Assembly (NCBI GenBank): GCA_023248215.1
Contig: JAHFEW010000002.1
Span: forward strand, 30,774 to 79,186
Source: Nitrospira sp.
GTDB taxonomy: Bacteria; Nitrospirota; Nitrospiria; Nitrospirales; Nitrospiraceae
Direction: 5' to 3'
DNA length: 48,413 nt
The notes under the pieces were generated by a model. It did not search any database. It worked only from the letters and a program-made list of their open reading frames with translations, and was not told the DNA's origin. The translations under genes were made by a program, and so were the position numbers. Positions 11,069 through 46,290 of this stretch are shown piece after piece; the stretch's first letter is position 1; the number at the start of each line of letters is the position of its first letter.

Positions 11069-11078
11069 GATGGATAAG

Positions 11079-16543: not shown

Positions 16544-16550
16544 GACGTAC

Positions 16551-16675: not shown

Positions 16676-16703
16676 TTATCGGCAGCCCGTCAGGAAGACT
16701 TAA
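16676..16703 (-). promoter_or_regulatory. Sigma-28 (FliA) promoter of fliC
   Basis: Minus strand TTAAGTCT-N12-GCCGATAA. The -10 is a perfect match to the FliA consensus. The -35 reads TTAA (or TAAG with 15-base spacing). Transcription should begin near 16669, giving a leader of about 125 bases. Confidence 0.85.
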
Positions 16704-17323: not shown

Positions 17324-17368
17324 GACGAGACTCCTTTGAAAGAGTGTCAAACCACGTCCACGGTCCTG

Positions 17369-25000: not shown

Positions 25001-26430
25001 AGAATTCGCAAGGTGCGACGAGGATCCTCGCGGCGCGTCTGTCGCAGGACATATTCGAGAAACGACGCGATTTTTGACCAGCGCGCGGCCTCGTCGGGGT
25101 TCGGCTCTGGTGTGGACCAGGCCGGCTTGTTGACAAACAAGTCCACATAAAACTCGTTCTGATCCATAGTCGCCTCGCCGGATGATGGATGGACCGTTCG
25201 AGGTGCCCTCTGGTTCACTGAGTGGACCGTCGAGGGAGGCTGTGCAAGCACCATAGAAGAGGTTTCTCTCGGCGGCCGTTGCTCGCCTTGGGTCGACAGC
25301 CCATAGTCTGGCGCTGTTCCTGTTCGAATCCAATCAAGCGTACCCCGCAGACGACGTTCGGCCGTGTGATACCGTTTGATCCTGCCCTGTGCCTGTTGCG
25401 CCAGCGATTCGGCGAATGCACGATCGTGCAGGACGTGATCGATTTGCTGAGCGAGCGCTCCCGGGTCATCTTGCTGGAACAGCAAGATGTCTTTCTCAGG
25501 TTCGAATAAGCCCATATTCTGTGGATGATCAGGAATATTCCAGGAAATGACCGGCCGTCCTGCCGCCATGGCCTCGATGACACGACCTCCATAAAATTTG
25601 GCCAAACTCGGTAAGTTCACCACGGCCGGCCACTGTGGAAGCTGTGCCATCCATTCGGTGAACTCTGCGAGTCGGATCTGTTGAAGCGCCTGTACGTATT
25701 CGAGGGTGGCGGATTCGGTCACCACATGGTTTTCACGTAGGTATTGCGCGGCCGTTTGTTGCAGCTGATCGAATAACTGTTGGTTTCTGGTTTGAGGGTG
25801 CACCGCTTTCGCGCAGTGGAGCCGGTTCTTGAGGAACGTATTGCCCACCCAATTCTGACGTCGTCCGTACGGCGTTCCGTGGAAGACGGCTTGTGATTGA
25901 AGCGGGCGGGTAGCGGGGCTGACGATGAATCGTTCCGGGACCATCGGTGGCCACCAGAGCGCGTTAGCCAGTCCACGCGCGTTGAGAGCGGCGGCATCTT
26001 GTTCATCGGGCGCGAGGACGTGGGTCAGATAAGGAAGCTGCACTTCGAGTTGTCCCTGCCGATGTTTCAGCTGCGGCGCCCAGGCATAGTCTTCCGCATC
26101 ATAGCGAAGCGACTCCATGAGCACCCCGACCCGCACCGGCGCCAACTCAGCCACCCATTCCAACGTGGCTTGGTCGAGCGGAGTATGAATCAGCCATAAC
26201 CAGACTTGGTCGAAGCGCCGTCCGGCCAGCATCTTCTTGGCGTGATAGACCCAGGAGGCGGGGCTGGAGCAAGGAGTCTCTGCAATCGCCGGAATGGTAA
26301 GAGAGGTCACACCGTTGGCCGTGAGGCCTTCTTGGACGGCAAAATTGGCCGAATAGGTCCAGGGGCGCGCGGCCGCCCAGGTAGGAAATTCCAGTTGGAT
26401 GAGGAGTGCGTTGGCGCGAATGGTCGTCAT
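22039..26430 (-). CDS. 1463-residue multidomain glycosyltransferase-methyltransferase fusion
   Basis: Order of domains: GT-B/CgeB-like transferase about 1-390 (SLAKFYGGRVIEAMAAGRPVISW); Ser/Pro-rich linker about 395-420; class I SAM methyltransferase about 430-640 (RILDVGCGRGWLTNLA, DVVLCSEVIEHVPHPDK); first GT2 domain from about 664 (VSIIVPTHNRPERLRVALES, AYLDDDDRFLPDH); second GT2 domain from about 926 (CSIIIPVWNNADLTQQCLTAL, VFLNNDTIPLKGWLAPL, and the GFDE/FEDVDLCLK acceptor region); TPR-like helical repeats from about 1240 to the end. One polypeptide could thus add and methylate several sugars. An in-frame ATG at 25167 (residue 422), preceded by GCGAGG, could give a separate protein lacking the first transferase. 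It heads the four-transferase block. Confidence 0.93.
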   Translation of the reverse strand: MTTIRANALLIQLEFPTWAAARPWTYSANFAVQEGLTANGVTSLTIPAIAETPCSSPASWVYHAKKMLAGRRFDQVWLWLIHTPLDQATLEWVAELAPVRVGVLMESLRYDAEDYAWAPQLKHRQGQLEVQLPYLTHVLAPDEQDAAALNARGLANALWWPPMVPERFIVSPATRPLQSQAVFHGTPYGRRQNWVGNTFLKNRLHCAKAVHPQTRNQQLFDQLQQTAAQYLRENHVVTESATLEYVQALQQIRLAEFTEWMAQLPQWPAVVNLPSLAKFYGGRVIEAMAAGRPVISWNIPDHPQNMGLFEPEKDILLFQQDDPGALAQQIDHVLHDRAFAESLAQQAQGRIKRYHTAERRLRGTLDWIRTGTAPDYGLSTQGEQRPPRETSSMVLAQPPSTVHSVNQRAPRTVHPSSGEATMDQNEFYVDLFVNKPAWSTPEPNPDEAARWSKIASFLEYVLRQTRREDPRRTLRILDVGCGRGWLTNLATAYGTCEGIEPVAGVVEHARRMFPYIRFEAGTPESVLARPDFRPFDVVLCSEVIEHVPHPDKPAFVNQLARLLTSDGYLILTTPRGDVWDEWRRIAPPNQPVEDWVTEQQLGQLLSDGGFCHLGMERIPIEVPSLRYFPAATPHDVRTFRLMPIYQVWACRRAATSVAPSMAFTRPPMVSIIVPTHNRPERLRVALESVNRQQYQDFEVIVVNDGTIPVESVVVEMNLAGRMTLVNHDHNRGLAASRNTGLRLAKGTYIAYLDDDDRFLPDHLGTLVGFLERGTHQIAYTDAWRIVEQEVEGVLTEAGRDRPHSSDFAAPRLLVENYIPVLCLMHRRACLDEVGLFDESLFVHEDWDLWIRLATQYPFAHIAQTTAEFTWRSDGSSMTSRDQDAFSRTMDIIYRKYFPYAAAHPRILAAQREHLSGLKARVAKASYHCSIIIPVWNNADLTQQCLTALAEVTDGVTYEVVVVDNGSTDGVQNFMQTLGGDVQVIRNQENLGFAKACNQGARAARGEYLVFLNNDTIPLKGWLAPLIEEVRIHSDVAVVGSKLLYEDGTIQHAGVAFSREWFLPYHIYRGADAHAACVSRRRELDCVTAACMLVRRAVFDQVGGFDEGYRNGFEDVDLCLKVRAQKWKIIYQPQSVLYHLESRTPGRKAHDSDNSRRLHDRWATSWWLADEDRIHFEDGYALHTYVADGQLSYRLRLIDDPTIRAERALVAEVQRAAQRRDQDMVVALLKRVEEWPDDVWILRWAALLCHGVMHPQLAIPFWRRVLALEDDSQARIALAKHALETGSLAEADAYLAALLKGAPSHGEGWLLRGIVAMQQNQYAEAESAFERAKLFGADPRKASLGMVMAAMGANRPERAWDLLVPLCANEPDDEECMHWFLRSGTALERWDAVGSRLTTFLVRNPGNMALRFALAGVLLRSGKRTDAQRECDMLRALDPTFDGLDELARRLAEPEAHLIPNHAA

Positions 26431-26456
26431 CGTGTCCAGACCCCTTCCCCTATAAG

Positions 26457-28079
26457 TTACCCGTTCGGGTTTCGCGGATCACCGAAATGACCGGCCGGCG
26501 CCGCTGTTCGGGATGCTGGTGTGATTTGCAACAATGATCCCGTGCCTGCAGTACTCGTTGCAGGAACTGCTGCCGGTGCCATGGCCATCGCCGGATCCTG
26601 TATGTGCCCAAAGGCGCCATCTCCCAGACTCACAAGCTGTTCCTGTGACGACGTCCCTGAATCGGCAAACAGTTTCTTTGACAGAAGGCGGGCGACACGC
26701 ACGAGCATCAGTGTTCCGCCGATGACCCCATGTTTTTGCAACATGGGCACCCACCGCCATGGAGCGGAATAGATACTGACAAAGCCTTCGTTTTGCAGAT
26801 CGATGAGGTCGGTGGGTGTCAAATCGCCTACCGTCGTCACCGCCGAGCCATAGCGCCTGTACTCAGAGAAGTCTTGCGTCATCAATCGCACGCCCTTCTC
26901 ACCCTTCACCGCCAAACTGTGAAACTCCGTGCCGGGATAGGGCACCGCGATGGCAAAGTTGGCCTGCTTCACCTCCCGGGCCTGGCGTAAGAATTTCAAC
27001 GTCGCCCGAACCGTGTCTCGCGTTTCTCCCGGCAATCCGATCATCACGGAGTTCAACGCTTCGACTCCGTATTTGTTGCAGATGCCGTTGGCTTTGACAT
27101 AGTGTTCGAGGGGGACTTGCTTCTTCATGGTTTTCCGTATTTCGGGATCCACGGTTTCCAGTCCGAACGACAGACGAATCAACCCGCTCTTGACCAGGCG
27201 CGCAATCACCTCTTCTTCCACCAAATTAGCCCGGGTGCTGCCTTCAAAGGTAATGGTCAGCCCTTCCTGGTCGATTAAGTCGCAGATTTCCAGAATGTGC
27301 TCCTTCCAGAGGGTCATCACATCGTCGACAATGTAAAAATGCCTGGTCCCGAAGGTCTCCACCACTTGCTTCATTTCATTCACGACCGAGCGTGGGGAAC
27401 GCACCCGCATCTCCGTCGTCTTGAGGGCTTCGGAGGCACAAAAAATACATTTCCAGGGGCAGCCGCGCATGGTTTGGATCGACGTGAAGGGCAGCCGTCC
27501 CCGCAGGGTGCCCAGTCTATAGTGGGGCATGTGCAGCCGATGTCGGGCCGGCACCGGCAACTCGTCAAGATTGGTGATGTCGGCTGGTTGCCCTGTCGAG
27601 ACAATCGCACCGTCCCGTCGAAAAATAAGCCCGGCCACGGCGGAGAGATCCTTGCCTTGTTCATAGTGATTCAAGAATTGCGGCCAGGATTCTTCCGCCT
27701 CCCCGATGAACGCATAATCGAACGGTTCCAGCAGCGTCTTCTCTTTCATGATGGTGATATGGGGTCCGCCCACCGCGATGGGAATGTCCGGCGCAAGCCG
27801 CTTGATGCCTTCCGCCACCGCCTTACTGAGGTGGAAGAACGGGCTGGTGGCCGTGAACCCGATAAGATCTGGTTTCTGTTCCACGGCTTTTCGGACCATG
27901 TCATCGAGGGGGATGTGCTCCGCCTCACCGTCCAGAATGGTAACCTCATGGCCATGGCGCTCGGCGATGGCAGCGAGGAGCGCCAGATTCAGCGGCGGCC
28001 AGGTTGAGTTTCTACGCGCGAAATGGCCGAAAAGCCCGTAGGCGCCGGTCCAGGTGGGATACAGCAACAATACCTTCAT
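26457..28079 (-). CDS. B12-binding-domain radical SAM protein (first of two)
   Basis: 540 residues with an N-terminal cobalamin-binding Rossmann domain (about 1-140: KVLLLYPTWTG, DLIGFTATSPF, IPIAVGGPHIT) and a radical SAM core with the 4Fe-4S motif CxxxCxxC at Cys207, Cys211 and Cys214, then SFGLETVDPEIRKTMKKQ and a basic/hydrophobic C-terminal part. The last 60 residues are Ala/Pro/Thr-rich. Class B enzymes of this type often methylate unactivated carbons. In a sugar locus, C-methylation or another radical rearrangement of a nucleotide sugar or glycan is the likely role, but the substrate is unknown. GAGGTGAT precedes the ATG. Confidence 0.92.
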   Translation of the reverse strand: MKVLLLYPTWTGAYGLFGHFARRNSTWPPLNLALLAAIAERHGHEVTILDGEAEHIPLDDMVRKAVEQKPDLIGFTATSPFFHLSKAVAEGIKRLAPDIPIAVGGPHITIMKEKTLLEPFDYAFIGEAEESWPQFLNHYEQGKDLSAVAGLIFRRDGAIVSTGQPADITNLDELPVPARHRLHMPHYRLGTLRGRLPFTSIQTMRGCPWKCIFCASEALKTTEMRVRSPRSVVNEMKQVVETFGTRHFYIVDDVMTLWKEHILEICDLIDQEGLTITFEGSTRANLVEEEVIARLVKSGLIRLSFGLETVDPEIRKTMKKQVPLEHYVKANGICNKYGVEALNSVMIGLPGETRDTVRATLKFLRQAREVKQANFAIAVPYPGTEFHSLAVKGEKGVRLMTQDFSEYRRYGSAVTTVGDLTPTDLIDLQNEGFVSIYSAPWRWVPMLQKHGVIGGTLMLVRVARLLSKKLFADSGTSSQEQLVSLGDGAFGHIQDPAMAMAPAAVPATSTAGTGSLLQITPASRTAAPAGHFGDPRNPNG

Positions 28080-28152
28080 ACATCACCTCGCTTGGAAGAC
28101 CATTCGTCGGTCATAGACCCAATGATCGTGCATCGGCAGTAGGCTCGATTCG

Positions 28153-29991
28153 TTACGGCTGTGATTGGACGTCCCGGCGGACGACATCCGGATATTCAGG
28201 ATTCATCCACCCGTCGGCCGGTTCGATGACCATGTTCGCTCGGAATTCTTCACGAGGCAGATAGGGATACATATCTTCGATGGGCGTCTTCCATCCGAAG
28301 ATCCTGGGTTCGTAGGTGTGAAACTCGTGCATGTCCACATCACAAACCACCGGGCCGTCGAATTGAAGCACCTCGTCGATCTTCGCATCCATCTCGCCAT
28401 GATTATTGATGGCCACGGTCTTGATCCCGTACGCCTGCACGAGTTTGAGGAAGTCAGGAGGATGGTATCCCTTCGGCCCGCAGGCTTCGGCACGTCCTTG
28501 AAAATTCGTCTCCTGGTAGGCCTTGGTAATCCCGTAGATATGGTTGTTCAAGATGAACGTTTTGACTTTGACGCCATAGTTGATGAAGGTCTGCAGCTCC
28601 TGCGGATTCATATTGAATCCGCCGTCACCGATCGTACAGACGACTTGGCGTGTGGGATCGGCGAACCAGGCGCCCATGGCGCCGGCAAAGGAGAAGCCCA
28701 TCGGCGAATTGCCGTTGTTGGTCAGGTTTCGTTGGCCATACTTGGTTTCGAACGCGTGGTTGCTGACGACGATGTTGCCGCCGCAGTCCCCCACCAGAAT
28801 ATCCGTCGCGCTCATCTTCTCGGACAGGCGCCGCATGAAGGCATAGGGATGCACGCGCTCGCGTTGCGCAAAAAACTCCGGCCGGACCGGATCGTACTGA
28901 TGCTTCCACTCCATCACTCGTGCCGTCCAACCCGAATAATCGGGCAGCGGCTTGCTTCGGCGATCGAGCGCGGCGATCAGGTGCCGGGTGAAGACCTTGG
29001 CATCGCACAGGATGTTCACATCAAAAGGCACTTGCTGGAACTTTCGCTGCACCATGGCCGGATCGATTTCCACCAGATACTTCTTGGCTTGACGCGCAAA
29101 GCTCTGTACATTTCCGCCGGTGATCCGACCGGAGATGCGGCTGCCGATGGACAGGAGCAGGTCGCTGTTCTGGATGCCGAAGTTTCGTCCGGCTCCGCCG
29201 TAGGTGCCGACGCGGCCGCCGTAGTTCTCGTAGTCCGAGGTGATGACATCCAGGGCATTCCAAGTTGGGAAGCAGGGCACGTTCAAGCGCCGGCCCAATT
29301 CACGCACGTCATCCTGCGCATCGGCCAAGCGCACCCCGCCGCCGACGAGAATGACCGGCCGTTCTGACGTCTGCAGTTCTGAGATGAAGCGCGCAATCTG
29401 GTCATCCACCACGGCGACATCGAAACTCGCGGCGGCAGGCGGTTCAAAGCCGGTGAGTTGTTTCGCATCGACCATTGTTTTTTGCACGTCGAGGGGGATA
29501 TCCAGCAGCACCGGGCCGGGTCGCCCCTGTTGGCAGAGCCACAGCGCTTTTTCCAGTTCATACCGGACGTCTTCCGCTTTTAGAATCATCTTGGCGTATT
29601 TGGTCACCGGCGCCGCCATCGCGACGATATCCGTCTCCTGGAACCCGATTTGCCGGATGGAGGGATCGGGCCGTAAGAAGCGCGAATTGATCTGGCCGGT
29701 CAGAAATACACAGGCTACGGAATCGTAAAAGCAGTTCCCCATCGCTGTGAGGAGATTCATCCCACCCGGCCCGCTGGTCGCGATCGCCACGCCGGGGACG
29801 CCTTTCACTTTGGCATAGGCTTCTGCTGCGAAACCGCCGGCCTGCTCATGCATGACCGCGACATACTCCGTGGCGCCCGTGCGGGTGAACGCATCGATCA
29901 AATCCCCGTTCGCGGCGCCGTAGACCACAAACATTTTGTCGATGCCCCGTTCCGCCAGCGTATTGATGATAAAGTCCGCGACCTTGATCAT
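28153..29991 (-). CDS. Thiamine diphosphate-dependent enzyme, acetolactate synthase-like
   Basis: 612 residues with the three-domain layout of acetohydroxyacid synthases: N-terminal ThDP Pyr domain with catalytic Glu49 (MHEQAGGFAAEAYA), central domain (VILVGGGVRLADA), and C-terminal ThDP PP domain with GDG...NN (about residues 452-481, CTIGDGGFNMNP ... FILNNHIYGI). AAGGAG precedes the ATG. Housekeeping ilvB would normally neighbour ilvN/ilvC; here it lies between two radical SAM genes in a sugar locus. Related enzymes (YerE of yersiniose synthesis) attach a pyruvate-derived two-carbon branch to a keto sugar. That role is inferred from context; a decarboxylase or lyase is also possible. Confidence 0.9.
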   Translation of the reverse strand: MIKVADFIINTLAERGIDKMFVVYGAANGDLIDAFTRTGATEYVAVMHEQAGGFAAEAYAKVKGVPGVAIATSGPGGMNLLTAMGNCFYDSVACVFLTGQINSRFLRPDPSIRQIGFQETDIVAMAAPVTKYAKMILKAEDVRYELEKALWLCQQGRPGPVLLDIPLDVQKTMVDAKQLTGFEPPAAASFDVAVVDDQIARFISELQTSERPVILVGGGVRLADAQDDVRELGRRLNVPCFPTWNALDVITSDYENYGGRVGTYGGAGRNFGIQNSDLLLSIGSRISGRITGGNVQSFARQAKKYLVEIDPAMVQRKFQQVPFDVNILCDAKVFTRHLIAALDRRSKPLPDYSGWTARVMEWKHQYDPVRPEFFAQRERVHPYAFMRRLSEKMSATDILVGDCGGNIVVSNHAFETKYGQRNLTNNGNSPMGFSFAGAMGAWFADPTRQVVCTIGDGGFNMNPQELQTFINYGVKVKTFILNNHIYGITKAYQETNFQGRAEACGPKGYHPPDFLKLVQAYGIKTVAINNHGEMDAKIDEVLQFDGPVVCDVDMHEFHTYEPRIFGWKTPIEDMYPYLPREEFRANMVIEPADGWMNPEYPDVVRRDVQSQP

Positions 29992-30014
29992 GAAGACTCC
30001 TTTCCCCTCTGCTT

Positions 30015-31523
30015 CTAGGCAGCCGGTCTGGCTGCCATGTCATGATGGCGCCGACGCACCTGGTGGCTGCACATGCCAGCCACATGGGTGGCGATCCGAT
30101 CTCCGAATCTCTGTTGCAGCATGTTCAGATAGCCTGGGTGGCCGAAATACTCTAAAAAGGCGCGATCTCGGAAGGCCAACACCTCCGTGGCCGTGAGGCG
30201 GTCGGTGGGCAAGGGACAGCTGTCGTAGGCATGTTGTGAGTAGCCAATCCAACCGGGCCCTCCCCTATCGTCCGGCAGCGCCCACTGTTTTTGTTTTGCG
30301 AGGCCGTACAGCGCCGAACCGGGATAGGCCATGGCACAGTAGAAGTTGGCCCACTCCGTGTTGAGGGCGAGGGCGAGATCCAACGTGGCGCGCATACTCT
30401 CCAACGTATCGTCGGGTAATCCGAAGATATAGTTGGCGGCGACGTGAATGCCGTACGAGCGGATCTTATCGACCGTCGCGACGATGTCTCGCTCGCCGAA
30501 CCGGCCCTTTTCTACGCCGTCCCTCACATGCTGGCTGCCGGATTCGATGCCGATGCCCAGCCAGGTAAATCCCGCTCGAGCCAATCTCACCAACACCTCG
30601 TCCTGTACCGTATCCACTCGCGCATAGGCCCAAATGTTGAGGCGGTAGCCCCGTTCGATGATGCGGTCGCAAATGCCGATTACATGCCGTCGATTCAGCA
30701 CGAACATTTCATCCGGGATCTTGATGTTGGTGACACCATAGTCCCGGACCAGCCGGTCGATTTGGCCGATGACGTTATCCGGGCTCCAGGTGCGCAGCAT
30801 GGGAGTGGCAAAGGGGGCATTGATGCAACAAAACGAACAGGTAAAGGGACAACCCAAGCTGGTCTGCAGCGAGGCGTAAGGAGATCTCGCGTCTAAGTTT
30901 CCGAAGCAGTGCCAGTTATGGGCGCGATACCGAGTCATATCGAGAAGATCCCAGGCCTGACCCGGCAATTCACGATCCAGATTCGTCAGCAGTTGCGCAG
31001 GGGCATTGCCCACCGGGGTTCCATCCTCCATGTGCCACAGGCCCGGTACATCGCGCAGGGAGTGCTGTGGCGCCCGCAGCGCGATCACCAAACCCAGAAT
31101 GGTCGCGGGGCCTTCGCCCTGGCAGACATAGGTATAGGGCTCTTCAAGCAACGTGCGCTTCGGCAGGGCCGAAGGATGCGTCCCCATCACCAGCGTAGGA
31201 ATGTCACAGAGTGTGTGAAGGATCTCGCACACCTTCCGTCCGGCCGGCATACATTGAGTGGAAGCGGAGGGCTGTTGGCCGTAGATAACAAAGACCGCGA
31301 GTCTAGGAGACATCACGGCGATCTGTTGCGCAGTCTGCTCATGATTCAATCCCTGCGCTTCGGCATCAAGGATGGCGACTGAGCAACTGTGTTGTCTCAA
31401 AAAGGTGGCGAGCAAACCGGACCACACGGGCGGTTCAATCGCGGCAAAATCACGGCTCAGTTCCTGGTAGACCTGTACCCGGCTGGGAGGGGTTACGAAG
31501 AGCACGTCAAGCGGCTTGGACAC
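30015..31523 (-). CDS. B12-binding-domain radical SAM protein (second of two)
   Basis: 502 residues from GTG 31523, chosen because GGAGG lies five bases upstream; the frame is open to 31670 but the extra part falls inside the aminotransferase gene. Cobalamin-binding-like domain about 5-150 (DVLFVTPPSRVQVY, CSVAILDAEAQ, TLVMGTHPSALP), radical SAM core with CxxxCxxC at Cys225, Cys229 and Cys232, and GIGIESGSQHVRDGVEKGRF. It overlaps the preceding aminotransferase stop by 17 bases. It is clearly different from the first radical SAM gene, so the two probably catalyse separate steps. Confidence 0.9.
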   Translation of the reverse strand: MSKPLDVLFVTPPSRVQVYQELSRDFAAIEPPVWSGLLATFLRQHSCSVAILDAEAQGLNHEQTAQQIAVMSPRLAVFVIYGQQPSASTQCMPAGRKVCEILHTLCDIPTLVMGTHPSALPKRTLLEEPYTYVCQGEGPATILGLVIALRAPQHSLRDVPGLWHMEDGTPVGNAPAQLLTNLDRELPGQAWDLLDMTRYRAHNWHCFGNLDARSPYASLQTSLGCPFTCSFCCINAPFATPMLRTWSPDNVIGQIDRLVRDYGVTNIKIPDEMFVLNRRHVIGICDRIIERGYRLNIWAYARVDTVQDEVLVRLARAGFTWLGIGIESGSQHVRDGVEKGRFGERDIVATVDKIRSYGIHVAANYIFGLPDDTLESMRATLDLALALNTEWANFYCAMAYPGSALYGLAKQKQWALPDDRGGPGWIGYSQHAYDSCPLPTDRLTATEVLAFRDRAFLEYFGHPGYLNMLQQRFGDRIATHVAGMCSHQVRRRHHDMAARPAA

Positions 31524-32727
31524 GGCAACCTCCGAGATTCTGGGCAAAGGCGATGGTGCGTGAGACGCCTTCCAGGACATCGTCTTCCTGCCCACAGGTG
31601 GCCAGGCGAATGAACGAAGCATAGGCTGGGCCGAAACTGCGGCCCGGTGTGACGGCGGTCTGATGTTCATCGAGCAGCCGTCGGCAAAAAGTCATGTCAT
31701 CGAGATTGGTGCCGGCGATGTCGACGAATAGATAAAATCCTGATTCCGGGCGGTTGCAGCGCAGGACCCCCGAACGGTTGATGTGGTCGGCGCAGGATTC
31801 GATCAGGCGGGCACTGCGCGCCCGGATGTCGTTCACGTAGTCTTCGAGCACCGCCAATCCGGCGAGACAACCCAGTTGGGTAAAGGCAGGAAGACAGGAA
31901 TACAGCGTTGAATTAGAGAGGGCCAATTTCGCAGCCACCGCTTCGTGGGCGAGGGCGTAGCCGGTCCGAAATCCTGGGATCGAGAACACTTTTGAAAATG
32001 AGGAGATCGCTACAACATGTCCGGCCTGCGCCGACGCAAGGGTGGTGAACGAGCCGTCGAATGTCAGGTCGGCGTAGGTCTCATCGCTCAACAACCAGAT
32101 TCCTGCCTCTTCGCAGCGAGCCGCGAGTTCCCTCACAATGACCGGTGTATACAGGGCCCCTGTAGGATTGTTGGCGTTGTTGAGGATGATCGCCTTTGGC
32201 CCGGACGCGAGAGCGGCTTCCACGGCTCCGCACGTGAGGTGAAAGCCATCCCCCTCAGACAGCGGTACGGCCGTGCCCCGGAGACCCAAGTGACTGGTGG
32301 CTGCCCAGTAGGAGGGAAACGCCGGCGTAAATAACACCACCTGATCGCCTGGATCGCAGGTAATATCGAGAAATTGGTGAATCAAAAGATTCGCCGGGCT
32401 GATGACGACATGGGAGTCAGTCAGCGCCTGCCCTGTCAACGACGCGTATCGAGCCGCCACCGTTGCACGCAACTCCTTCAAGCCCGCCATCGGTGTATAC
32501 CCGAGATGTCTGGCTCGGAGCGCTTCCATCGTCGCCTCAATGACTTGAGGCGGAGGGGCCATCCGTGGGTTGCCGAGTTCCAAGTGATAGATATGGTGGC
32601 CTTGCCGTTCCATGGCCTGAGCGCGATCCATCACCCGGAACATCTCCTGGCCAATCAACCGTTCGCCACGAGATGAGAAGGACAGCGTGTGAAGTACGGG
32701 TGAAGCGGGCAACGTGCGAGGTGCCAT
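31507..32727 (-). CDS. Class I/II PLP-dependent aminotransferase
   Basis: 406 residues of the aspartate aminotransferase fold. The PLP lysine is Lys246 in SSFSKVFSIPGFR. Other key residues are Asn187 (NNPTG), Asp215 and Tyr218 (DETYAD) and Arg254. Substrate not evident: amino acid, keto acid or amino sugar precursor. Its start shares one base with the preceding stop (TAATG), so it is tightly coupled to the nucleotidyltransferase gene. Class I/II enzymes are unusual for nucleotide-sugar amination, which normally uses DegT-family proteins; it may instead supply an amino-acid-like decoration or a precursor for the ThDP enzyme. Confidence 0.9.
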   Translation of the reverse strand: MAPRTLPASPVLHTLSFSSRGERLIGQEMFRVMDRAQAMERQGHHIYHLELGNPRMAPPPQVIEATMEALRARHLGYTPMAGLKELRATVAARYASLTGQALTDSHVVISPANLLIHQFLDITCDPGDQVVLFTPAFPSYWAATSHLGLRGTAVPLSEGDGFHLTCGAVEAALASGPKAIILNNANNPTGALYTPVIVRELAARCEEAGIWLLSDETYADLTFDGSFTTLASAQAGHVVAISSFSKVFSIPGFRTGYALAHEAVAAKLALSNSTLYSCLPAFTQLGCLAGLAVLEDYVNDIRARSARLIESCADHINRSGVLRCNRPESGFYLFVDIAGTNLDDMTFCRRLLDEHQTAVTPGRSFGPAYASFIRLATCGQEDDVLEGVSRTIAFAQNLGGCRVQAA

Positions 32728-33488
32728 TACGAGATCGATCCTTGTGCGTGATGGAGGGGCGATGCCGGGAAGTAGACCGACGGGTCTTTCCAGACATCCC
32801 GGAAGCGCGCCAGACGCTCGGGAGTTCCGATGTCATACAGCGAACTGGCCGTCACGAAGCCGTAAAAACCTTGTGTCACCAGCTGTGGGAGCAGAACTCG
32901 CTCCAGGGACCAGGGGCTGTTCCCAAGGAACAGAGACTCGATGGCACGATCAAACACATAGATGCCGGCATTGTGATACCCCCTCACCCGAGTGCGCGGC
33001 TTTTCGACCATCGAGAGGACCCGATCGTCTTCGCCTAGCACCACGGCCCCCGTGTCCTCGCGTTCATCCGATTGGGTCACCGCGATCGTCGCGCGCGCCC
33101 GCTTGAGCGCATGAAAACGCAACAGCCGCTCCGGGTCGATCTCACACAGGGAGTCCCCGTTCAGCACCAGGATCGGATTGCTGCGCACCAATGTCATGGC
33201 CAGCGCCAGGGCTCCGCCGGTTCCTAGCGGAGAGGGATCGCGGATGAACATCGTGTCGTAGACACCCCGGTGGCGTCCGAACCATTCCTCGATCATCTCT
33301 CCACGGTGGCCCGTGCTGAAAATGAATCGTCGCGCACCATGGCGCAGAAAATGTTCGACGATCAGGGACACGAACGGACGGCCATGAATCTCGGCCATCG
33401 GTTTCGGACGGTCCTGCACCACGGATTGAAGGCGAGTGCCAAGCCCTCCACAAAGAATGATGACATCGCATTCGCCAAGTGCGCCCAT
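32727..33488 (-). CDS. hddC: Nucleotidyltransferase, HddC-like (heptose-1-phosphate guanylyltransferase)
   Basis: 253 residues from ATG 33488. Typical NTP-transferase: LCGGLGTRLQSVVQDRPKPMAEIHGRPF, then LVLNGDSLCEID. Adjacent to a GHMP kinase of the HddA type and close in sequence style to D-glycero-alpha-D-manno-heptose 1-phosphate guanylyltransferase. It should make GDP-heptose (or another NDP-sugar) for the island. The kinase stop lies two bases upstream. Base specificity cannot be read from sequence alone. Confidence 0.85.
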   Translation of the reverse strand: MGALGECDVIILCGGLGTRLQSVVQDRPKPMAEIHGRPFVSLIVEHFLRHGARRFIFSTGHRGEMIEEWFGRHRGVYDTMFIRDPSPLGTGGALALAMTLVRSNPILVLNGDSLCEIDPERLLRFHALKRARATIAVTQSDEREDTGAVVLGEDDRVLSMVEKPRTRVRGYHNAGIYVFDRAIESLFLGNSPWSLERVLLPQLVTQGFYGFVTASSLYDIGTPERLARFRDVWKDPSVYFPASPLHHAQGSIS

Positions 33489-33490
33489 CG

Positions 33491-34561
33491 TCAGGCTGCC
33501 TTTCCGATAAGGGCGGCTTTGAGTCTGGAGGCTGTATGGGCCGAACTCTGAGCCCACACGTCATCCAACATGGAATGGTCTTCCTGGTAAAACACAATCT
33601 GGCTGCCCAGCCCTTCAAATTTGAAGGGAACCTGCAATAAACCCGGCAAGGCCATGCGAATCCGTTCATGATCCTCCGGCTTCGCGAAGAACAACATGAA
33701 CCCCCCGCCTCCCGCGCCCAACAACTTCCCGCCGAGCGCCCCGGCTTCCCTGGCCGCGGCATAAATGTCGTCGATGGCCGGTGTGGTAATGCGCGACGTC
33801 AGACGGCGTTTCAACATCCAGGCCTCATGAAGTAATGTTCCAAACTCAGTCAGATCCCCTTCACCGGTGAGGATTGAAATGCCCTCCTGGACCATCTGCA
33901 ACATGGCGAAGAGTTCGGCCTGGCGTTGTTTCGTGCGATCGATTTGCTCGCGGGCCACCTCCGACGCGATCCGTGAAAACCCCGTGAAATACAGCTGTAA
34001 ATGGTTCTGGAACGCGGTGAGCCGATCCGGCCGCATCACGATCGGAGTATGGCCGATCTCTCCGTTCTGAAAGAAATTGACCCGACAGAGGCTGCCTTGT
34101 GCCGCCAGCACCTGATCCTGGCATCCGACGGCTTCGCCGAGCACATCCTGTTCGACGTGAATCGCCGCCTGCGCGAGCTGTGCTTTGCTGGGCATGATGT
34201 GCTGCAAGGCGTACAGCGTGTGGAGCAGGCCCACAGTAAACGATGAGCTGGACCCCAGCCCGGTGCGGGCCGGCAAGTCCCCGTCGTGGTGAATTTCCAG
34301 CCCGTCGTTGATATTGAGATACTTGAGCACGCCGCGGACCGCGGGATGTTCGATGTCCTGATTGTTGTTCACCAGCTCGATGCGTGAATAGGCAATGCGA
34401 GTGCGATGTTCGAAAAACGGCGGCAGGCGGCGGCAACTGATGTAGCAATACTTGTCGATGGTCGTGGCCAGCACGGCCCCGCCATGCTCACGAAACCATA
34501 CGGGATAGTCGGTGCCTCCGCCGAAGAATGACATTCGGAAAGGGGTTCGGCTAATAATCAT
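33491..34561 (-). CDS. hddA: GHMP kinase, HddA-like (heptose-7-phosphate 1-kinase)
   Basis: 356 residues from ATG 34561; the frame open to 34795 has no family-like extension. The start MIISRTPFRMSFFGGGTDYP and the region TTIDKYCYISCRRLPPFFEHR strongly recall D-glycero-alpha-D-manno-heptose-7-phosphate kinase (HddA). The GHMP ATP motif is visible as ARTGLGSSSSFTVGLL, and the C-terminal GGKLLGAGGGGFMLFF motif is complete. With hddC it gives two steps of GDP-heptose synthesis; the sedoheptulose-7-phosphate isomerase (GmhA) and phosphatase (GmhB) are not in the window. Confidence 0.9.
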   Translation of the reverse strand: MIISRTPFRMSFFGGGTDYPVWFREHGGAVLATTIDKYCYISCRRLPPFFEHRTRIAYSRIELVNNNQDIEHPAVRGVLKYLNINDGLEIHHDGDLPARTGLGSSSSFTVGLLHTLYALQHIMPSKAQLAQAAIHVEQDVLGEAVGCQDQVLAAQGSLCRVNFFQNGEIGHTPIVMRPDRLTAFQNHLQLYFTGFSRIASEVAREQIDRTKQRQAELFAMLQMVQEGISILTGEGDLTEFGTLLHEAWMLKRRLTSRITTPAIDDIYAAAREAGALGGKLLGAGGGGFMLFFAKPEDHERIRMALPGLLQVPFKFEGLGSQIVFYQEDHSMLDDVWAQSSAHTASRLKAALIGKAA

Positions 34562-34590
34562 CGTGATCGTCCTCGCTGCGTGGCGTCGCT

Positions 34591-35538
34591 TCAGACATTG
34601 GCATACTGGCCGGCCTTGATGATTGTGTAACACTTGATCAACTCCCGGATCCCCCGCTCCAGCGACCACTCCGGCTTGAACCCGGTGGCCAGCAGTCGCT
34701 GGTTGGACACGATATAGTCCCGCTTGTCTGGGTCCTCGCCGATGGGCGCTTCGAATGACACAAAGTGGGGCAGCAAACGCTGGATCTCCCGGCACAGCTC
34801 GAGTTTCGACAGGTTCGCGTCATCCAGCCCCACGTTGTAGGGGCGGTCTTTCATCTGTTCGAAGTGATCGATCGCGTGGAGGAACGTGCGCACGACATCT
34901 CGCAGGTGGATATAGTTGCGCTTGCAGTGGCCTTCGAAGACGACCACGGCGCGATCCTGCACGGCATGCCAGACAAAATCGTTGACGAGCAAATCCATCC
35001 GCATTCTCGGCGACACACCAAACACGGTGGCTAGCCGCAAGGTGATGGCATTGCCGCGGTCCAGCACGACCCGCTCCGCTTTCACTTTGGTCTCGCCGTA
35101 AAGACTGATAGGACGCAGTGGAGATTCTTCCGTGCAAGGCACGCCGGGTTGCCCGATCCCATAGCCGCTATTGGTGACAGGAAAAATGATTCGTTGGCGG
35201 GGTGAAGACAGTTTACACAGGAGCTGAACGGCTTCGAAATTAACCGTATAGGCCCCGATTCGGTCCCGATCGCAGAGGGGGGCCCCGACTAAGGCCGCGA
35301 GCGGGATGATAATGTCGGCATGCCGCAGCAGATCCGTCAGCAGCCGTTCATCCCTGCAGTCACCACGGACCACCTGAAAACCCTCTTCACCACAGCAGTC
35401 CATCAGGCTGTTCTGTCGATAGAGAAAATTGTCCAGGGCTGTCACCCGATAGCCCCGTTCAAGCAGCCGTTTGCTGAGCACAGAACCGATATACCCGGCT
35501 CCTCCGGTCACGAGCACATGTGTCGAGGCTGTCGTCAT
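34591..35538 (-). CDS. NAD-dependent SDR nucleotide-sugar epimerase/dehydratase or dehydrogenase
   Basis: 315 residues from ATG 35538. Extended SDR: NAD motif TGGAGYIGS (11-19), Ser124 in the VTNSGYG stretch, and YxxxK at Tyr147-Lys151. The start VLVTGGAGYIGSVLSKRLLE and the lack of a clear 4,6-dehydratase signature recall enzymes acting at C4 of GDP-heptose (Campylobacter Cj1427 type), which would produce the 4-keto sugar needed by the neighbouring DegT-type protein. A 4,6-dehydratase or epimerase is also possible. Confidence 0.87.
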   Translation of the reverse strand: MTTASTHVLVTGGAGYIGSVLSKRLLERGYRVTALDNFLYRQNSLMDCCGEEGFQVVRGDCRDERLLTDLLRHADIIIPLAALVGAPLCDRDRIGAYTVNFEAVQLLCKLSSPRQRIIFPVTNSGYGIGQPGVPCTEESPLRPISLYGETKVKAERVVLDRGNAITLRLATVFGVSPRMRMDLLVNDFVWHAVQDRAVVVFEGHCKRNYIHLRDVVRTFLHAIDHFEQMKDRPYNVGLDDANLSKLELCREIQRLLPHFVSFEAPIGEDPDKRDYIVSNQRLLATGFKPEWSLERGIRELIKCYTIIKAGQYANV

Positions 35539-35676
35539 GGTTGAACGAGCTCCCCTATGAGTGAGCGCACAGTGGTTGTTGCAGGCCTGCCGATGCGGCA
35601 TGACGACCGGTCGCACCCATGAGATCCAAGGACGCAGGCGGCAAGCCGCTGCTCCCAATCACCAAGAGGCGATCTG

Positions 35677-36870
35677 TCATGCGGCCTCCAAGACAACGCG
35701 GGCGATCTGAGCCACATCCTGCTCGTTCATCGAAGCATGATTGGGCAGGAAGAACCCGCAATGATGCACTCGATCAGCCACTGGGAAGCTGGCTTTCCCA
35801 TAGCGGTTCACCCAGAAGGGATGGAGGCCCAGGTTGCCGGCAGAGAAAATACGCGTCTCGATTCCCTCAGCCACGAGCGCGCGAACAATTCGCCGCCGCT
35901 GCTCCGGTGAATCCGCGAGCAGGCCGAAGGAGATGCTGGACACCTTGCTGCCCTTGGGCGGGCGTTGGGTGTAAAACCGTCCCCCCAGCTGTTGCAGATA
36001 CCGTTCGTGGTTCGCCTGTCGTCGGCCGGTCATCCAGTCGAGCTTGTGCAGCTGCTCAAGTCCGATGAAGGCGTTGAGATCAGTCGAACGCAGATTGAAG
36101 CCTGGCTCGTAAAAGACGAAGGGAGAGTGAAAGTCGTCGATCTGATAGTGCGAGACCAACTCCTGATGGCTCGCAGAATCGAGATCCTTGCCCCACCCAT
36201 GGCTGCGCAACATCAAGAGAAGATCGGCGAACCGTTTATCGCTGGTCGACACCATGCCGCCTTCGATAGTGGACATCTGGTGGCCGAAATAAAATGAGAA
36301 GCTCGCCATGTCGCCGAAGGTTCCCACCTTCTTGCCTTGATACTCCGCTCCGATCGCAGCGCAGGCGTCTTCGAGCAAATAAAACCCATATCGATTCTTG
36401 AGCGCCTGCAATTCATTCATGCGGTGTGGGACGCCGAGCACCTGCACCAGGATGACGGTATGCGCCTCATGGCGTTTCAAGAGGTCTTCGAGATGATTCA
36501 GATCAAGTCCGAACGTATCCGGGTCGGCCTCGCACATGATGGGCGTGAAACCAAATTGGATGGCCGGGGCGATAGAGGTCACCCACCCGACGCTGGGCAC
36601 GATCACGTTCGTGTTGCGCAACGTGCCTGATCGGAGCAAGGCGTAATACATTAAAAGATTTGCCGAGGAACCGGAATTACAGTTGACCGAATAGGGACGC
36701 CCCAACCATTCCGACCATTGCCGCTCGAAGTCGAGGGTCACCGCCCCTTTCGTGAGGCGTGGGTAGGTTTGAAGCCAGGCGATCAATCGATCGATGTCTC
36801 GTCGATCGATGGTGTCCTGTGCGAGGCACCATCGAGGATTCAGTCCGGCACTATGGGTGTGAAGAGTCAT
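35677..36870 (-). CDS. DegT/DnrJ/EryC1-family PLP/PMP enzyme with His in place of the catalytic Lys
   Basis: 397 residues with the sugar aminotransferase fold ([31 protein letters not shown]). Where aminotransferases have the Schiff-base lysine (SFxxxK), this protein has [14 protein letters not shown], with His197. That substitution is the mark of PMP-dependent sugar 3-dehydratases (ColD, DdhC/E1), which remove the C3 hydroxyl of a 4-keto-6-deoxy sugar. A role in making a 3-deoxy sugar is likely. It lacks the C-terminal cysteine cluster of DdhC, so it is closer to ColD in type. First gene of the island; GAGGG precedes the ATG. Confidence 0.88.
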
Positions 36871-37069
36871 AATCGTCGTCCCTCTCGCTCTTCCGAATGT
36901 TTCCCCTGGTCCATCGAAGGACGAGAGGCGGCATTAGGACAACAATCAAGATGTATGCCACTGATAGGTCAGGAGAGAGAGGGCGAAATTCGGGGATTTG
37001 GGAGTGATGCCACAGAATGATCGCGCGGGACCGGGTAAAAATTTCCCAGTCACCGGCAACAGCTGCAGC
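36871..37069. other. 199-bp space upstream of the glycosylation island
   Basis: This gap must contain the promoter for the 20-kb leftward island and the end of the YcgR-like gene. No sigma-28, sigma-54 or obvious sigma-70 pair was found, and no hairpin with a T-run. Short purine-rich stretches are present but not informative. Confidence 0.4.
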
Positions 37070-42236: not shown

Positions 42237-42713
42237 TTAACAGGCTGTTGCTTGAAGCGGAAGGTTGTTCGAAGGACGTTGAACCGTGCGGCCGGCAAAG
42301 AGTGGATACCGAGTCGGCAGATCTTCGGAAAGCACCAGCTGCTTGCAGAGTCTGGTTCGATGGTTCATGACCAGCGGGCCACGCAGGTTGGCTGTCACCG
42401 CACTGGGATCGTGTGAAGGAATGGTCAAGACCGTCACGACGGACAGCTCGTCGCTGTCCTGTTTCTGGATTTCGATCAAGGCATCCAAGGGAATCTGGAT
42501 CTGATAATCTGGCTTAAAGAAGGCAGGGTCCAGGACGACAAATGCCAACTGTGGCTCCTCCATGCACTGCAGCCATTTGAACGGAGCATCCGTGTCATGA
42601 TCGAGTAGCACGTACTTGGTCCATTCCGGAAAGCCGAGGATGCCGGAAGGAAACACCAACACGGTGTCATCTTTCACCTCAAACGTACCAAACCTAGTCG
42701 AGTAACACTTCAT
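42237..42713 (-). CDS. fliW: Flagellar assembly factor FliW (CsrA antagonist)
   Basis: 158 residues with the FliW start (MKCYSTRFGTFEVKDDTVLVFPSGILGFPEWTKYVLLD shape) and family motifs LQCMEEPQLAFVVLDP and LTIPSHDPSAVTANLRGPLV. FliW binds CsrA and is displaced by flagellin, thus linking filament assembly to translation. It follows csrA by 9 bp and ends the flgH-to-fliW leftward run, converging on the hybrid kinase gene. The last 20 residues are less conserved. Confidence 0.96.
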   Translation of the reverse strand: MKCYSTRFGTFEVKDDTVLVFPSGILGFPEWTKYVLLDHDTDAPFKWLQCMEEPQLAFVVLDPAFFKPDYQIQIPLDALIEIQKQDSDELSVVTVLTIPSHDPSAVTANLRGPLVMNHRTRLCKQLVLSEDLPTRYPLFAGRTVQRPSNNLPLQATAC

Positions 42714-42722
42714 GCGTTCACC

Positions 42723-42968
42723 TCAGGCTCCGCGGCGTCCGGTTTTATTCGACAATTGGCGGAAGGCTTCGAGCGGAATGACGCCCGGTCCCGCCGCTAT
42801 TCGATTCTCTTCTTGAATCCTCGCGTGGACTTCGTCTCGGTGCACCTCCACATTGAGCGGTGCCTCGATTCCCAGCCTGACCTGTCCGCCTTTGATTCCG
42901 AGTACCACAATGCGGACATCGGGACCGATGGTGACGCCTTCTCCTCGACGTCGGGATAACACCAGCAT
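42723..42968 (-). CDS. csrA: Carbon storage regulator CsrA
   Basis: 81-residue RNA-binding repressor. The start at ATG 42968 gives the canonical MLVLSRRRGEGVTIG N-terminus (AAGGAAGG upstream); a longer open frame is spurious. Core KGGQVRLGIEAPLNVEVHRDEV contains the RNA-binding Leu and Arg. The C-terminus is about 15 residues longer than minimal CsrA, as in species with FliW, where this tail is part of the FliW-binding surface. A sigma-28 type promoter lies in the short gap after flgL. Probable target: the fliC leader. Confidence 0.97.
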   Translation of the reverse strand: MLVLSRRRGEGVTIGPDVRIVVLGIKGGQVRLGIEAPLNVEVHRDEVHARIQEENRIAAGPGVIPLEAFRQLSNKTGRRGA

Positions 42969-43006
42969 GCAAGCCTTCCTTGGCGTGTGGATACGGGTAC
43001 ATGGCT

Positions 43007-43034
43007 TTATCGGTTCGGATGAAATTGAACTTGA
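43007..43034 (-). promoter_or_regulatory. Sigma-28 promoter of csrA-fliW
   Basis: Minus strand TCAAGTTC-N12-ACCGATAA in the flgL-csrA gap. The -10 has seven of eight consensus bases and the -35 shares AAGTTC with the flgM site. Expected leader about 32 bases. Confidence 0.65.
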
Positions 43035-43041
43035 GGGCGGG

Positions 43042-43932
43042 TTAGCGGAGATAGTTGAGCAAGGACGTGTCGAAAATTCTGGTAAAGGCCTGGCTGGCGG
43101 CGTCCACCGCGACTTCTTGCAGTCGGAGCTGGGTGATCGCCGTCGCAAGATCGGCATCTTGGTTGTCGGAGATAGATTTTGAAATGGTCAACGTGGCCGT
43201 ATCCAAGGCGTCGTGTGTGACTTGCAGTCGGTTGCCCAAGGCCCCGATTGTGCCCTGCGCATCGCTGAGCTGAGCGGTGGCCAGATCTAGATTGCCGAGG
43301 CCGGTCTGAATGCCGTTGCGGTCGTTGCCTTCCAGGGCCGTTAAGAGATCGCGCAGAGAATCAAACACATTGGTGCTCGATCCCGTAAAGATGCTGCTCC
43401 CCGGCACGAGGACTTGTACGGTCTGATTTTCACTGACGGCGATCGACTGGGTTTCGCTGTTGCCTTGATAGGCCACAGTATCTCCGGACGTGATGGTGAA
43501 GGGGGTCACATCGGTTTTGGTCCCGGCGAAGACCGCCTGCCCGGCCACTTCCGTATTCCCCAGTTGGACAAGGTGACGCTGAAGCTGACGCACTTCCTTG
43601 GCAATCGTGTTGCGTCCTTCGGCTGAAGTCGTGTCGCTGGCGGCTTGAATCGTCAACTCACGAACCCGCATAATTAGGTTTTGTGCCTGCCCCAGTGCCT
43701 GGTCGGCCGCATCGACCCTGGCCGTGCCGAAATTAATATTCCGAATCCATTGTGTCGTCTGAGATAGCGCCGATTTATCGAGCACAATCTGTCCGAACGC
43801 ACTCGGGTCGTCCGAGGGATTCTCAACCTTTTTCTGACTGGAGATCTGTTCTTGTGCAGTCAGGATTTGTGAGCGAGAGCGTTGGAGATTGCCGAGCAAG
43901 GTTCCGTAGATTTGTTGGTCGGCCACTCTCAT
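43042..43932 (-). CDS. flgL: Hook-filament junction protein FlgL (HAP3)
   Basis: 296 residues, normal length. Flagellin-like ends: MRVADQQIYGTLLGNLQRSRSQIL and the C-terminal TAITQLRLQEVAVDAASQAFTRIFDTSLLNYL. Joins hook (via FlgK) to filament. AGGGAGC precedes the ATG. It follows flgK by 30 bp in the same run. Confidence 0.96.
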   Translation of the reverse strand: MRVADQQIYGTLLGNLQRSRSQILTAQEQISSQKKVENPSDDPSAFGQIVLDKSALSQTTQWIRNINFGTARVDAADQALGQAQNLIMRVRELTIQAASDTTSAEGRNTIAKEVRQLQRHLVQLGNTEVAGQAVFAGTKTDVTPFTITSGDTVAYQGNSETQSIAVSENQTVQVLVPGSSIFTGSSTNVFDSLRDLLTALEGNDRNGIQTGLGNLDLATAQLSDAQGTIGALGNRLQVTHDALDTATLTISKSISDNQDADLATAITQLRLQEVAVDAASQAFTRIFDTSLLNYLR

Positions 43933-43962: not shown

Positions 43963-45357
43963 TTAACGTTTCAGCGTCAGAATCGTTTGCAACATCTCAT
44001 CGCTGGTGATAATCAGCTTCGAGGCCGCCTGAAATGCCCGCTGGTATTTCAGAAGATTAATCAACTCCTCATCCATCGATACCCCCGACACTTCCGCGCG
44101 ATGGGCCTGCAATTGATCGTGAAAGATCTCCTGCCCTTGTAGATCGCGCGTGGCTTCCTGAAGCGTGGCTCCGAAGCTGCCGGCCATGGCGCTGTAGTAG
44201 CCTTGAAACGTCGTATTTCCCAATCCTGACACAGCGGCCGTTTGCAGGTTGGCCAATGCCAGGGCATTGACATTATTCCCAGGGACGCCTGCGGCAGTGG
44301 AAGAGGCCGCGATCTGTCGTCGGTCGGTCAAGGCCACGCTAATCGTGGCGGCCGTGCTTCCAGTCGCGGTAAAGAAGTCCTGGGTCGTGGATCCATCCAG
44401 GCCATATCCCACACGATGCTGGGTGTTCACCTGCGAGACGAGTTGAGACGCGAGGGTATCGAGAGAGCTCTGCAGACCGGCCGCCGTCGAGTCACGCGCG
44501 TCGATCAAGCCTTTGAGACGACCACTGCTGATGACCGACGTGAGATCCGTGTTGGGCCCGCTCCCGCTATCGTACCGCACGTCCAGGAGACCGCCGTTAC
44601 CGGCATTGGCGACGCCGGCCAGTTGGAAGGCCGTCTGCTGAGCCACCAGCACCTGCCCGACTCCGACAAAGACCGTGACTTGTCCTGTGGCATCCTCGAT
44701 GGATGAGACATCAATCAATCCACCGAGATCATTCAGAAACCGTCCGCGTTGGTCGCGCAAATCATTGGCCTGCTGACCGCTGACTTCCGCGAGCTTAATC
44801 TGGCTATTGAGATCGGCAATCTGAGCGGCAAGGGCGTTGATATCGTTGATGCCGCTCTGAATCTGACCGTCCAAGGACGATCGCTGAGAAGACAGCTGAG
44901 TGGCAGCCTGATTAAGTCGTTTGGCTGCCGAATCGGCCTTGGAGAGCAGAACGGTTCGGGACGTCAGGTCAGCGGGGTTGGTGGCGACATCTTGCCAGGC
45001 CTTGAAGAACTCGTTGAGTCCTGCGGCGATGCCCTGGTCGTTCGAGTCCGCAAAGACCGACTGAATTTGCGAGAGGGCTTTCTGTGATGCCCCGAACTGA
45101 CCCAGTCGTTCGTTCGAGTTCAACAACTGCTGTTCAACGAAGGTATCGACGGAACGCCGGACCTCGGACGCTTCGACACCGGTTCCAATCTGTCCCGGCC
45201 GTCCGTTTTCCGGCGTAGTTTCGTTGAGGATAATTTCCTGTCGAGAGTAGCCTGGCGTATTGACGTTTGCAATGTTCTGGCCCGTCACGGCCAGGGCACG
45301 TTGGAACGTGGCCAACGCATTGGAACCGATCCCGAACAAGCCGTTGAGTCCAGACAT
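43963..45357 (-). CDS. flgK: Hook-associated protein FlgK (HAP1)
   Basis: 464 residues. N-terminal rod/hook signature (GIGSNALATFQRALAVTGQNIANVNTPGYSRQEI), coiled helical region, and C-terminal GVSMDEELINLLKYQRAFQAASKLI. Slightly shorter than enterobacterial FlgK (about 550), lacking part of the outer domains. It sits between flgN, its chaperone, and flgL. Confidence 0.97.
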   Translation of the reverse strand: MSGLNGLFGIGSNALATFQRALAVTGQNIANVNTPGYSRQEIILNETTPENGRPGQIGTGVEASEVRRSVDTFVEQQLLNSNERLGQFGASQKALSQIQSVFADSNDQGIAAGLNEFFKAWQDVATNPADLTSRTVLLSKADSAAKRLNQAATQLSSQRSSLDGQIQSGINDINALAAQIADLNSQIKLAEVSGQQANDLRDQRGRFLNDLGGLIDVSSIEDATGQVTVFVGVGQVLVAQQTAFQLAGVANAGNGGLLDVRYDSGSGPNTDLTSVISSGRLKGLIDARDSTAAGLQSSLDTLASQLVSQVNTQHRVGYGLDGSTTQDFFTATGSTAATISVALTDRRQIAASSTAAGVPGNNVNALALANLQTAAVSGLGNTTFQGYYSAMAGSFGATLQEATRDLQGQEIFHDQLQAHRAEVSGVSMDEELINLLKYQRAFQAASKLIITSDEMLQTILTLKR

Positions 45358-45368
45358 ACGACTACCCG

Positions 45369-45821
45369 TTATCCTGTGGTTCTCACCCTGTGGGTTGTTT
45401 CCTGCACATGGGCGCCGTTGGATGAGTATAGTGCCGCCGACTCCGGTGAGCGTTGCCAGAGCCGCAAGGTACCCTCCAAGAATTCGAGAGATTGCCCGAT
45501 GAGTGCCCCGTTCAACCGGTTCAGCCGATCGGTCTGCCCTATGGCCACGACGAGGTCTGTTTCCTGCTGCTGCAACGCAGGGGGCAATTTCTGAGCTCTT
45601 GGAGAGGACGGCATGGTCCGACGTTGTTGTTCCAGGTTTCGAATCTCATCTAAGAGTTGAGATTTGTGCAGAGTCACCGTGGTGAATTGTCCGAACGAAA
45701 GGGAGCGAATGGCTTCTTGCTCCTCCATGAGCAATGCCTGAAAGGCGACGATTTTGTCGAGCATGCGACGGAGGAGCGTGTCAGATTCTGTGGGCAATGG
45801 CTGCTGTACGGTCGGCACCAT
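45369..45821 (-). CDS. flgN: FlgN-type export chaperone
   Basis: 150 residues, predicted nearly all alpha-helix (LLRRMLDKIVAFQALLMEEQEAIRSLSF, LLDEIRNLEQQR, LNGALIGQSLEFLEGTLRLW). FlgN proteins guide FlgK and FlgL to the export apparatus. Weak sequence conservation is normal for the family; position directly upstream of flgK and after flgM is decisive. Confidence 0.88.
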   Translation of the reverse strand: MVPTVQQPLPTESDTLLRRMLDKIVAFQALLMEEQEAIRSLSFGQFTTVTLHKSQLLDEIRNLEQQRRTMPSSPRAQKLPPALQQQETDLVVAIGQTDRLNRLNGALIGQSLEFLEGTLRLWQRSPESAALYSSNGAHVQETTHRVRTTG

Positions 45822-45894: not shown

Positions 45895-46200
45895 CTACAG
45901 GACCGAGTCCGTCAGAACGCTGCGGATGATGGCGTCCGCAACCTGCTTGCCGTCCACCCTGTAGGTTCCGCCTTCGAGCGACTGGCGGATATGATCGACC
46001 TTGGCATCACGCTCCGCATTTGGCTGTTCAGCCGCCGCCCTCAGGCGCTGCAGCTCTTTGGCCTGTTCGGAAATCTGTACACGGTCTTGAGTCCCCGTAT
46101 TCTGAGATGCCGTCTTTTTGCTGCCTGTCCGTTCGGTTTCGTGGACTCCCAGCAGGATTTTTGCGAGATCTGCCGACCGGCCGTTCTGTGAGATCTCCAT
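45895..46200 (-). CDS. flgM: Anti-sigma-28 factor FlgM
   Basis: 101 residues. The C-terminal half holds the sigma-28-binding region (RVQISEQAKELQRL, RDAKVDHIRQSLEGGTYRVDGKQVADAII). The first 40 residues are longer than in short FlgM versions and look disordered. It holds FliA inactive until the hook is done and FlgM is exported. AAGGAG precedes the ATG. The gene has its own sigma-28 promoter, giving the classical negative feedback loop. Confidence 0.95.
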   Translation of the reverse strand: MEISQNGRSADLAKILLGVHETERTGSKKTASQNTGTQDRVQISEQAKELQRLRAAAEQPNAERDAKVDHIRQSLEGGTYRVDGKQVADAIIRSVLTDSVL

Positions 46201-46262: not shown

Positions 46263-46290
46263 CTATCGGCTGGACCGGCGGGGAACTTTA
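46263..46290 (-). promoter_or_regulatory. Sigma-28 promoter of flgM
   Basis: Minus strand TAAAGTTC-N12-GCCGATAG; both elements are within one base of the FliA consensus. The -35 overlaps the flgJ stop codon. Transcription should begin near 46256, with a leader of about 55 bases that includes a small GCCCC/GGGGC hairpin at 46230-46242. Confidence 0.75.

Follow-up and report, generated by a model that had tools for sequence, protein, structure and literature searches.

The csrA and fliW genes of Nitrospira sp. form the tail of a compact run flgI-flgJ-flgM-flgN-flgK-flgL-csrA-fliW, in which all genes have the same direction (Table 1; positions refer to the window, that is, the whole analysed stretch of 48,413 nt). 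The FlgM gene belongs to the same operon as csrA-fliW, and the FliA gene is also nearby. There is one FliA above the curated cut-off in the genome (TIGR02479 match, 262 bits). CsrA, FliW and flagellin are all encoded, with a single flagellin besides FlgL. The flagellar region also contains two genes for MinD/FlhG-like ATPases, as judged from translations only, at 11153..12199 of the window (plus strand) and at 2264..3151 of locus L002 (minus strand). One of them adjoins fliA and the other is divergent from the chemotaxis operon.

The CsrA and FliW proteins are predicted to be of the interacting type, as the first-pass annotation had assumed: they belong to the respective Pfam families and both match the solved CsrA-FliW complex 5dmb. 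FliW binds an extended C-terminus of its CsrA partners; the 81-aa CsrA aligns to 5dmb_D, the CsrA chain co-crystallised with FliW, over residues 2-68, past the core domain. Of 175 genomes of the family, 127 encode both CsrA and FliW, 43 encode neither and five are discordant. For CsrA and FliA the respective numbers are 122, 40 and 13, and fragmented drafts make up many of the discordant cases. That csrA, fliW and fliA are inherited together nearly throughout suggests a flagellar role for CsrA in the Nitrospira family. Two further arrangements were seen among relatives. Family f2, a different family within the same order (loci L144-L149), has fliW, and the 1.5 kb upstream of it showed no csrA. 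In a genome of the same class (G315, locus L074), a single contig carries two fliW genes separated by about 19 kb.

Table 1. Genes, predicted promoters and candidate CsrA sites of the flagellar loci (window positions)
Feature	Position	Strand	Remarks
Predicted sigma-28-type promoter before chemotaxis operon	11079..11106	minus	TAAAGTTT-N12-ACCGATAC; sibling of the csrA site
fliC (flagellin)	15716..16543	minus	275 aa
Candidate CsrA site 2, over fliC Shine-Dalgarno box	16550..16562	minus	CTTCAGGAGGAAG, GGA-rich
Candidate CsrA site 1, fliC leader hairpin	16586..16605	minus	CGUCGGC-ACGGAC-GCUGACG; 7 bp, ANGGAN hexaloop
Predicted sigma-28-type promoter of fliC	16676..16703	minus	TTAAGTCT-N12-GCCGATAA
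fliW	42237..42713	minus	158 aa, PF02623; begins 9 nt past csrA
csrA	42723..42968	minus	81 aa, PF02599; sole CsrA in genome
Candidate CsrA site for autoregulation, over csrA Shine-Dalgarno box	42973..42984	minus	GCC-AAGGAA-GGC
Predicted sigma-28-type promoter of csrA-fliW	43007..43034	minus	TCAAGTTC-N12-ACCGATAA
-10 box of csrA site	43014..43007	minus	ACCGATAA, read from sequence
Spacer of csrA site	43026..43015	minus	AATTTCATCCGA, 12 nt
-35 box of csrA site	43034..43027	minus	TCAAGTTC, read from sequence
flgL	43042..43932	minus	Flagellin_N and Flagellin_C domains
flgK	43963..45357	minus	PF22638
flgN	45369..45821	minus	PF05130
flgM (anti-sigma-28)	45895..46200	minus	PF04316
Predicted second sigma-28-type promoter of csrA-fliW operon, upstream of flgM	46263..46290	minus	TAAAGTTC-N12-GCCGATAG

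The gap between flgL and csrA is 73 nt long (43041..42969, between the flgL stop at 43042 and the csrA start at 42968, minus strand). The first-pass annotation had placed a sigma-28-type site in this gap, and the site is there exactly as described, on the minus strand at 43034..43007. Its -35 box is separated from the end of flgL by 7 nt, and the csrA-fliW transcript would be expected to start at about 43000. The site agrees with the E. coli sigma-28 consensus TAAAGTTT-n11-GCCGATAA in 13 of 16 positions and has a spacer longer by 1 nt (PMC2859248). The octamers are of the type found in the class 3 promoters of E. coli, where the spacer is 11 nt (PMC2859248), versus 12 nt in genus Nitrospira; both lengths occur in the wider family. 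The 12-nt spacer is common to the csrA, flgM, fliC and che sites of this genome. No sigma-70 promoter was flagged on the minus strand in the gap.

Pattern counts set the site against chance. The pattern TNAAGTNY-N12-RCCGATA, which was loosened until the flagellin promoter fitted, matches the 4.69-Mb genome exactly at five places, against none for the reversed control. Four of the five are directly upstream of flgM, csrA, fliC and the chemotaxis operon. The fifth, on contig 167, falls inside unrelated protein-coding genes and seems to be due to chance. A second pattern, TMAAGTTY-N14-CGATAA, was shaped on the csrA site, which is its only match with zero mismatches in the same 4.69 Mb. With at most two mismatches allowed, six matches were found in the 48-kb window versus 0.29 expected, and none of 50,000 dinucleotide shuffles of the flgL-csrA gap reached the observed score. 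The genome-wide counts are pattern searches and the patterns were partly shaped on the sites themselves; thus the independent evidence is conservation in relatives.

Both boxes upstream of csrA are retained in all 16 named relatives. If the site is called present at a score of at least 13 of 16, it is found in 28/28 genomes of the genus, 65/76 genomes of the family and 0/23 genomes outside the family, with 26 of 7600 dinucleotide shuffles (0.3%) and none of the reverse-strand controls passing. Among genus members, the boxes have a pairwise identity of 92% and the spacer one of 56%. Of the 28 genomes, 27 have a spacer of 12 nt, and 34-39 nt separate the end of the -10 box from the csrA ATG. Genus g15 has a mixture of 11- and 12-nt spacers, with two at 10 nt, and genus g17 has spacers of 11 nt. 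The 11 family genomes in which no site scores at least 13 include the single examined members of g6, g9 and g16 and about half of g17; several of these 11 genomes encode FliA.

A functionless chance resemblance would account for the extra base of the spacer relative to E. coli and for the first boxes, which are not perfect matches to the consensus. However, it is contradicted by the conservation throughout the genus and in 65 of 76 family genomes while the spacer is free to vary, by the recurrence of the 12-nt spacer at flgM, fliC and che, and by the shuffled gaps. As far as comparison can decide, conservation together with the genome-wide pattern count rejects this explanation, and we consider its probability negligible. 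Given the pattern count, the conservation, the retention of the boxes over the spacer and the presence of both FliA and FlgM in the genome, csrA-fliW almost certainly has a sigma-28 promoter of its own. The proposal that csrA-fliW is under such a promoter is thus backed by comparative evidence.

This promoter need not be the only source of the csrA transcript. A second sigma-28-type site upstream of flgM is retained in all 13 loci of relatives that reach that far, and a search of the minus strand from flgM to csrA revealed no intrinsic terminator. The operon being compact and no terminator cutting csrA off from its upstream part, transcripts begun at earlier promoters or at the sigma-28 site of flgM are expected to read through into csrA. 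The first-pass annotation had csrA-fliW switched on only after hook completion, which requires that csrA have no other source of transcript; since read-through is expected, this part of the claim is not supported. It is defensible to say that csrA-fliW expression is boosted at the flagellin stage.

It may even be that csrA-fliW owes most of its transcript to read-through from the early flg promoters and from the sigma-28 promoter of flgM, with a real but minor contribution of the proximal one, and that CsrA is made before hook completion as in Bacillus. The compact co-directional operon and the conserved flgM site fit this possibility, and so do two known systems. In Geobacter sulfurreducens the operon flgJKLMN-csrA-fliW, which has much the same gene content and also has csrA before fliW, is co-transcribed, and the available part of the report mentions no separate sigma-28 promoter (PMC13407953). 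In Leptospira, the csrA and fliW genes likewise end a hook-associated operon, flgN-flgK-flgL-fliW-csrA, which is treated as one unit with one promoter before flgN, and CsrA acts on flagellin (PMC8668096). On the other hand, read-through alone leaves the retention of the proximal site in 65 of 76 family genomes unexplained. We regard predominant read-through as a serious possibility, although the lesser one. Very probably, a FliA (sigma-28) promoter gives csrA-fliW its own late-class transcript beside the read-through from flgM-flgN-flgK-flgL with its conserved flgM sigma-28 site.

The flagellin gene appears to be transcribed from a promoter of the same class. Of 27 genus genomes with a fliC match, 26 yielded a leader, and the promoter TTAAGTCT-N12-[GA]CCGATAA is present in all 26. 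The start signals of csrA-fliW and the flagellin gene being the same, the brake is probably made together with flagellin; the suggestion that csrA-fliW shares the timing of the flagellin stage agrees with these data. The fliC leader contains two candidate CsrA-binding sequences, ACGGAC and CAGGAGGA. The first is in the loop of a hairpin found in 26/26 genus leaders, always with seven base pairs and an ANGGAN hexaloop; the stem has five variants, none of which breaks a pair, and the folding z-score is -3.5. ANGGAN in a hexaloop is a described high-affinity site of the CsrA protein family (PMC7652899). The second overlaps the Shine-Dalgarno box, where TTCAGGAGGAAGT is identical in 26/26 leaders. 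Thus the assumption that CsrA blocks fliC translation has gained candidate binding sites in the fliC leader in all 26 genus loci. Two other features of this region were observed. Between the promoter and the CsrA hairpin, at 16642..16629 of the window (minus strand), the fliC leader contains a largely conserved perfect palindrome of 14 nt, GATGTGCGCACATC (GATGTGGCCACATC in most relatives). The segment at about 17000..37000 of the window, between fliC and flgL-csrA-fliW, contains glycosyltransferase-like, radical-SAM-like and sugar-nucleotide genes, as judged from translations only, and this block is possibly involved in flagellin or surface glycosylation.

The leader of csrA contains a candidate CsrA-binding sequence of its own, GCCAAGGAAGGC. 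The pattern GCC-ANGGAN-GGC over the csrA Shine-Dalgarno box is found in 54/76 genomes of the family and 5/23 genomes outside it. AAGGA in this leader is also a plain Shine-Dalgarno box. Since the N positions vary and the other bases are retained, a CsrA site of the form GCC-ANGGAN-GGC fits better than a plain Shine-Dalgarno box. In about half of the examined g17 genomes ACGGAT is found on the csrA start codon instead. The stem is only 3 bp long and is not more stable than shuffled sequences (folding z-scores 0.05 to 0.55), so a stable structure is not supported by folding energy and the autoregulation claim rests on motif conservation. It is a reasonable inference that CsrA probably represses its own translation via this leader. 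E. coli CsrA represses its own translation (PMC7652899), and the Nitrospira csrA leader is a candidate equivalent. The action of CsrA on its own leader would be a probable fourth arm, absent from the three-part loop of the first-pass annotation.

Conservation of this 3' part of the gap would also be expected if the whole gap acted mainly as RNA, that is, as a leader or regulatory structure of the read-through transcript, and not as a promoter. However, the upstream part consists of two octamers of the sigma-28 consensus separated by a spacer of fixed length and variable sequence, and it belongs in one class with the promoters of fliC and flgM. A purely RNA-level role of the gap is therefore highly improbable.

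The observations are of sequence elements, of how well these are conserved and of proteins that are inherited together; from them we infer promoter activity, RNA binding, partner switching and timing as follows. Upon completion of the hook FlgM would be exported. FliA would then act on promoters that all have one shape, TNAAGTNY-N12-RCCGATA, and so start fliC, flgM-N-K-L-csrA-fliW, csrA-fliW and the che operon at the same time. CsrA dimers would bind the fliC leader at the ACGGAC hexaloop hairpin and the GGA-rich Shine-Dalgarno box and block translation. FliW would bind CsrA and free fliC until flagellin builds up and captures FliW. Finally, CsrA would probably limit its own translation via GCC-ANGGAN-GGC over the csrA Shine-Dalgarno box. 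The elements fit the three-part homeostatic loop proposed in the first-pass annotation, as do the conserved fliC leader sites and the co-inheritance of CsrA, FliW and FliA; the exclusively post-hook switch-on is the part that does not stand.

The proposed three-part loop is the known Hag-FliW-CsrA circuit of B. subtilis, with the same three proteins, where CsrA represses flagellin translation at the Shine-Dalgarno box of the leader and FliW is the antagonist (PMC6529632, PMC7652899). FliC-FliW-CsrA homeostasis is known from Bacillus, Campylobacter and Clostridioides (PMC6529632, PMC4894983, PMC11898703). In Nitrospira, unlike B. subtilis, csrA precedes fliW and the pair has its own predicted sigma-28 promoter. 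The B. subtilis fliW-csrA genes, which likewise lie downstream of flgM-flgN-flgK-flgL, have an internal promoter that is said, in Yakhnin's work of 2007, to be sigma-A dependent. Compared with B. subtilis, a separate promoter for sigma-28 would speak for homeostasis after hook completion rather than a checkpoint before it. In E. coli, csrA has five promoters, used by sigma-70 and sigma-S and not by sigma-28, according to the title of Yakhnin 2011 (cited in PMC13407953), and a search of E. coli gave no FliW match.

No link of Nitrospira csrA to a sigma-28 promoter and no description of a family-wide, separate and conserved sigma-28 promoter for csrA-fliW were found in the literature searched. 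Hence the predicted promoter wiring of the Nitrospira family, which is well supported at the level of sequence comparison, is the new part, the FliC-FliW-CsrA circuit itself being known. The flagellin brake would be tied to the stage of flagellin transcription in a poorly studied, ecologically important family of nitrite oxidisers and their relatives. This provides a clean comparative case of a homeostatic circuit rewired at the promoter level, with a separate sigma-28 promoter versus read-through operons elsewhere. A bolder proposal, which we consider rather unlikely, is that CsrA of the Nitrospira family is no longer a global carbon regulator. It would be a single-copy, flagellum-only protein, transcribed by sigma-28 together with its target from a dedicated promoter and limited by autorepression; the loop would exist only in filament-building cells and would serve post-hook homeostasis, not a pre-hook checkpoint.

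The pattern TNAAGTNY-N12-RCCGATA can be used as it stands to map the late flagellar genes of Nitrospira. The chemotaxis operon, which has one of its matches, opens with a small helix-turn-helix gene. Only about 12 nt separate the end of the site from the ATG of this gene (window 11106..11066, minus strand), and thus the transcript may have almost no leader. Another sigma-28-like site, TCAAGCTT-N12-GCCGATGT, which is weaker, was observed just upstream of cheB at 5761..5734 of the window (minus strand).
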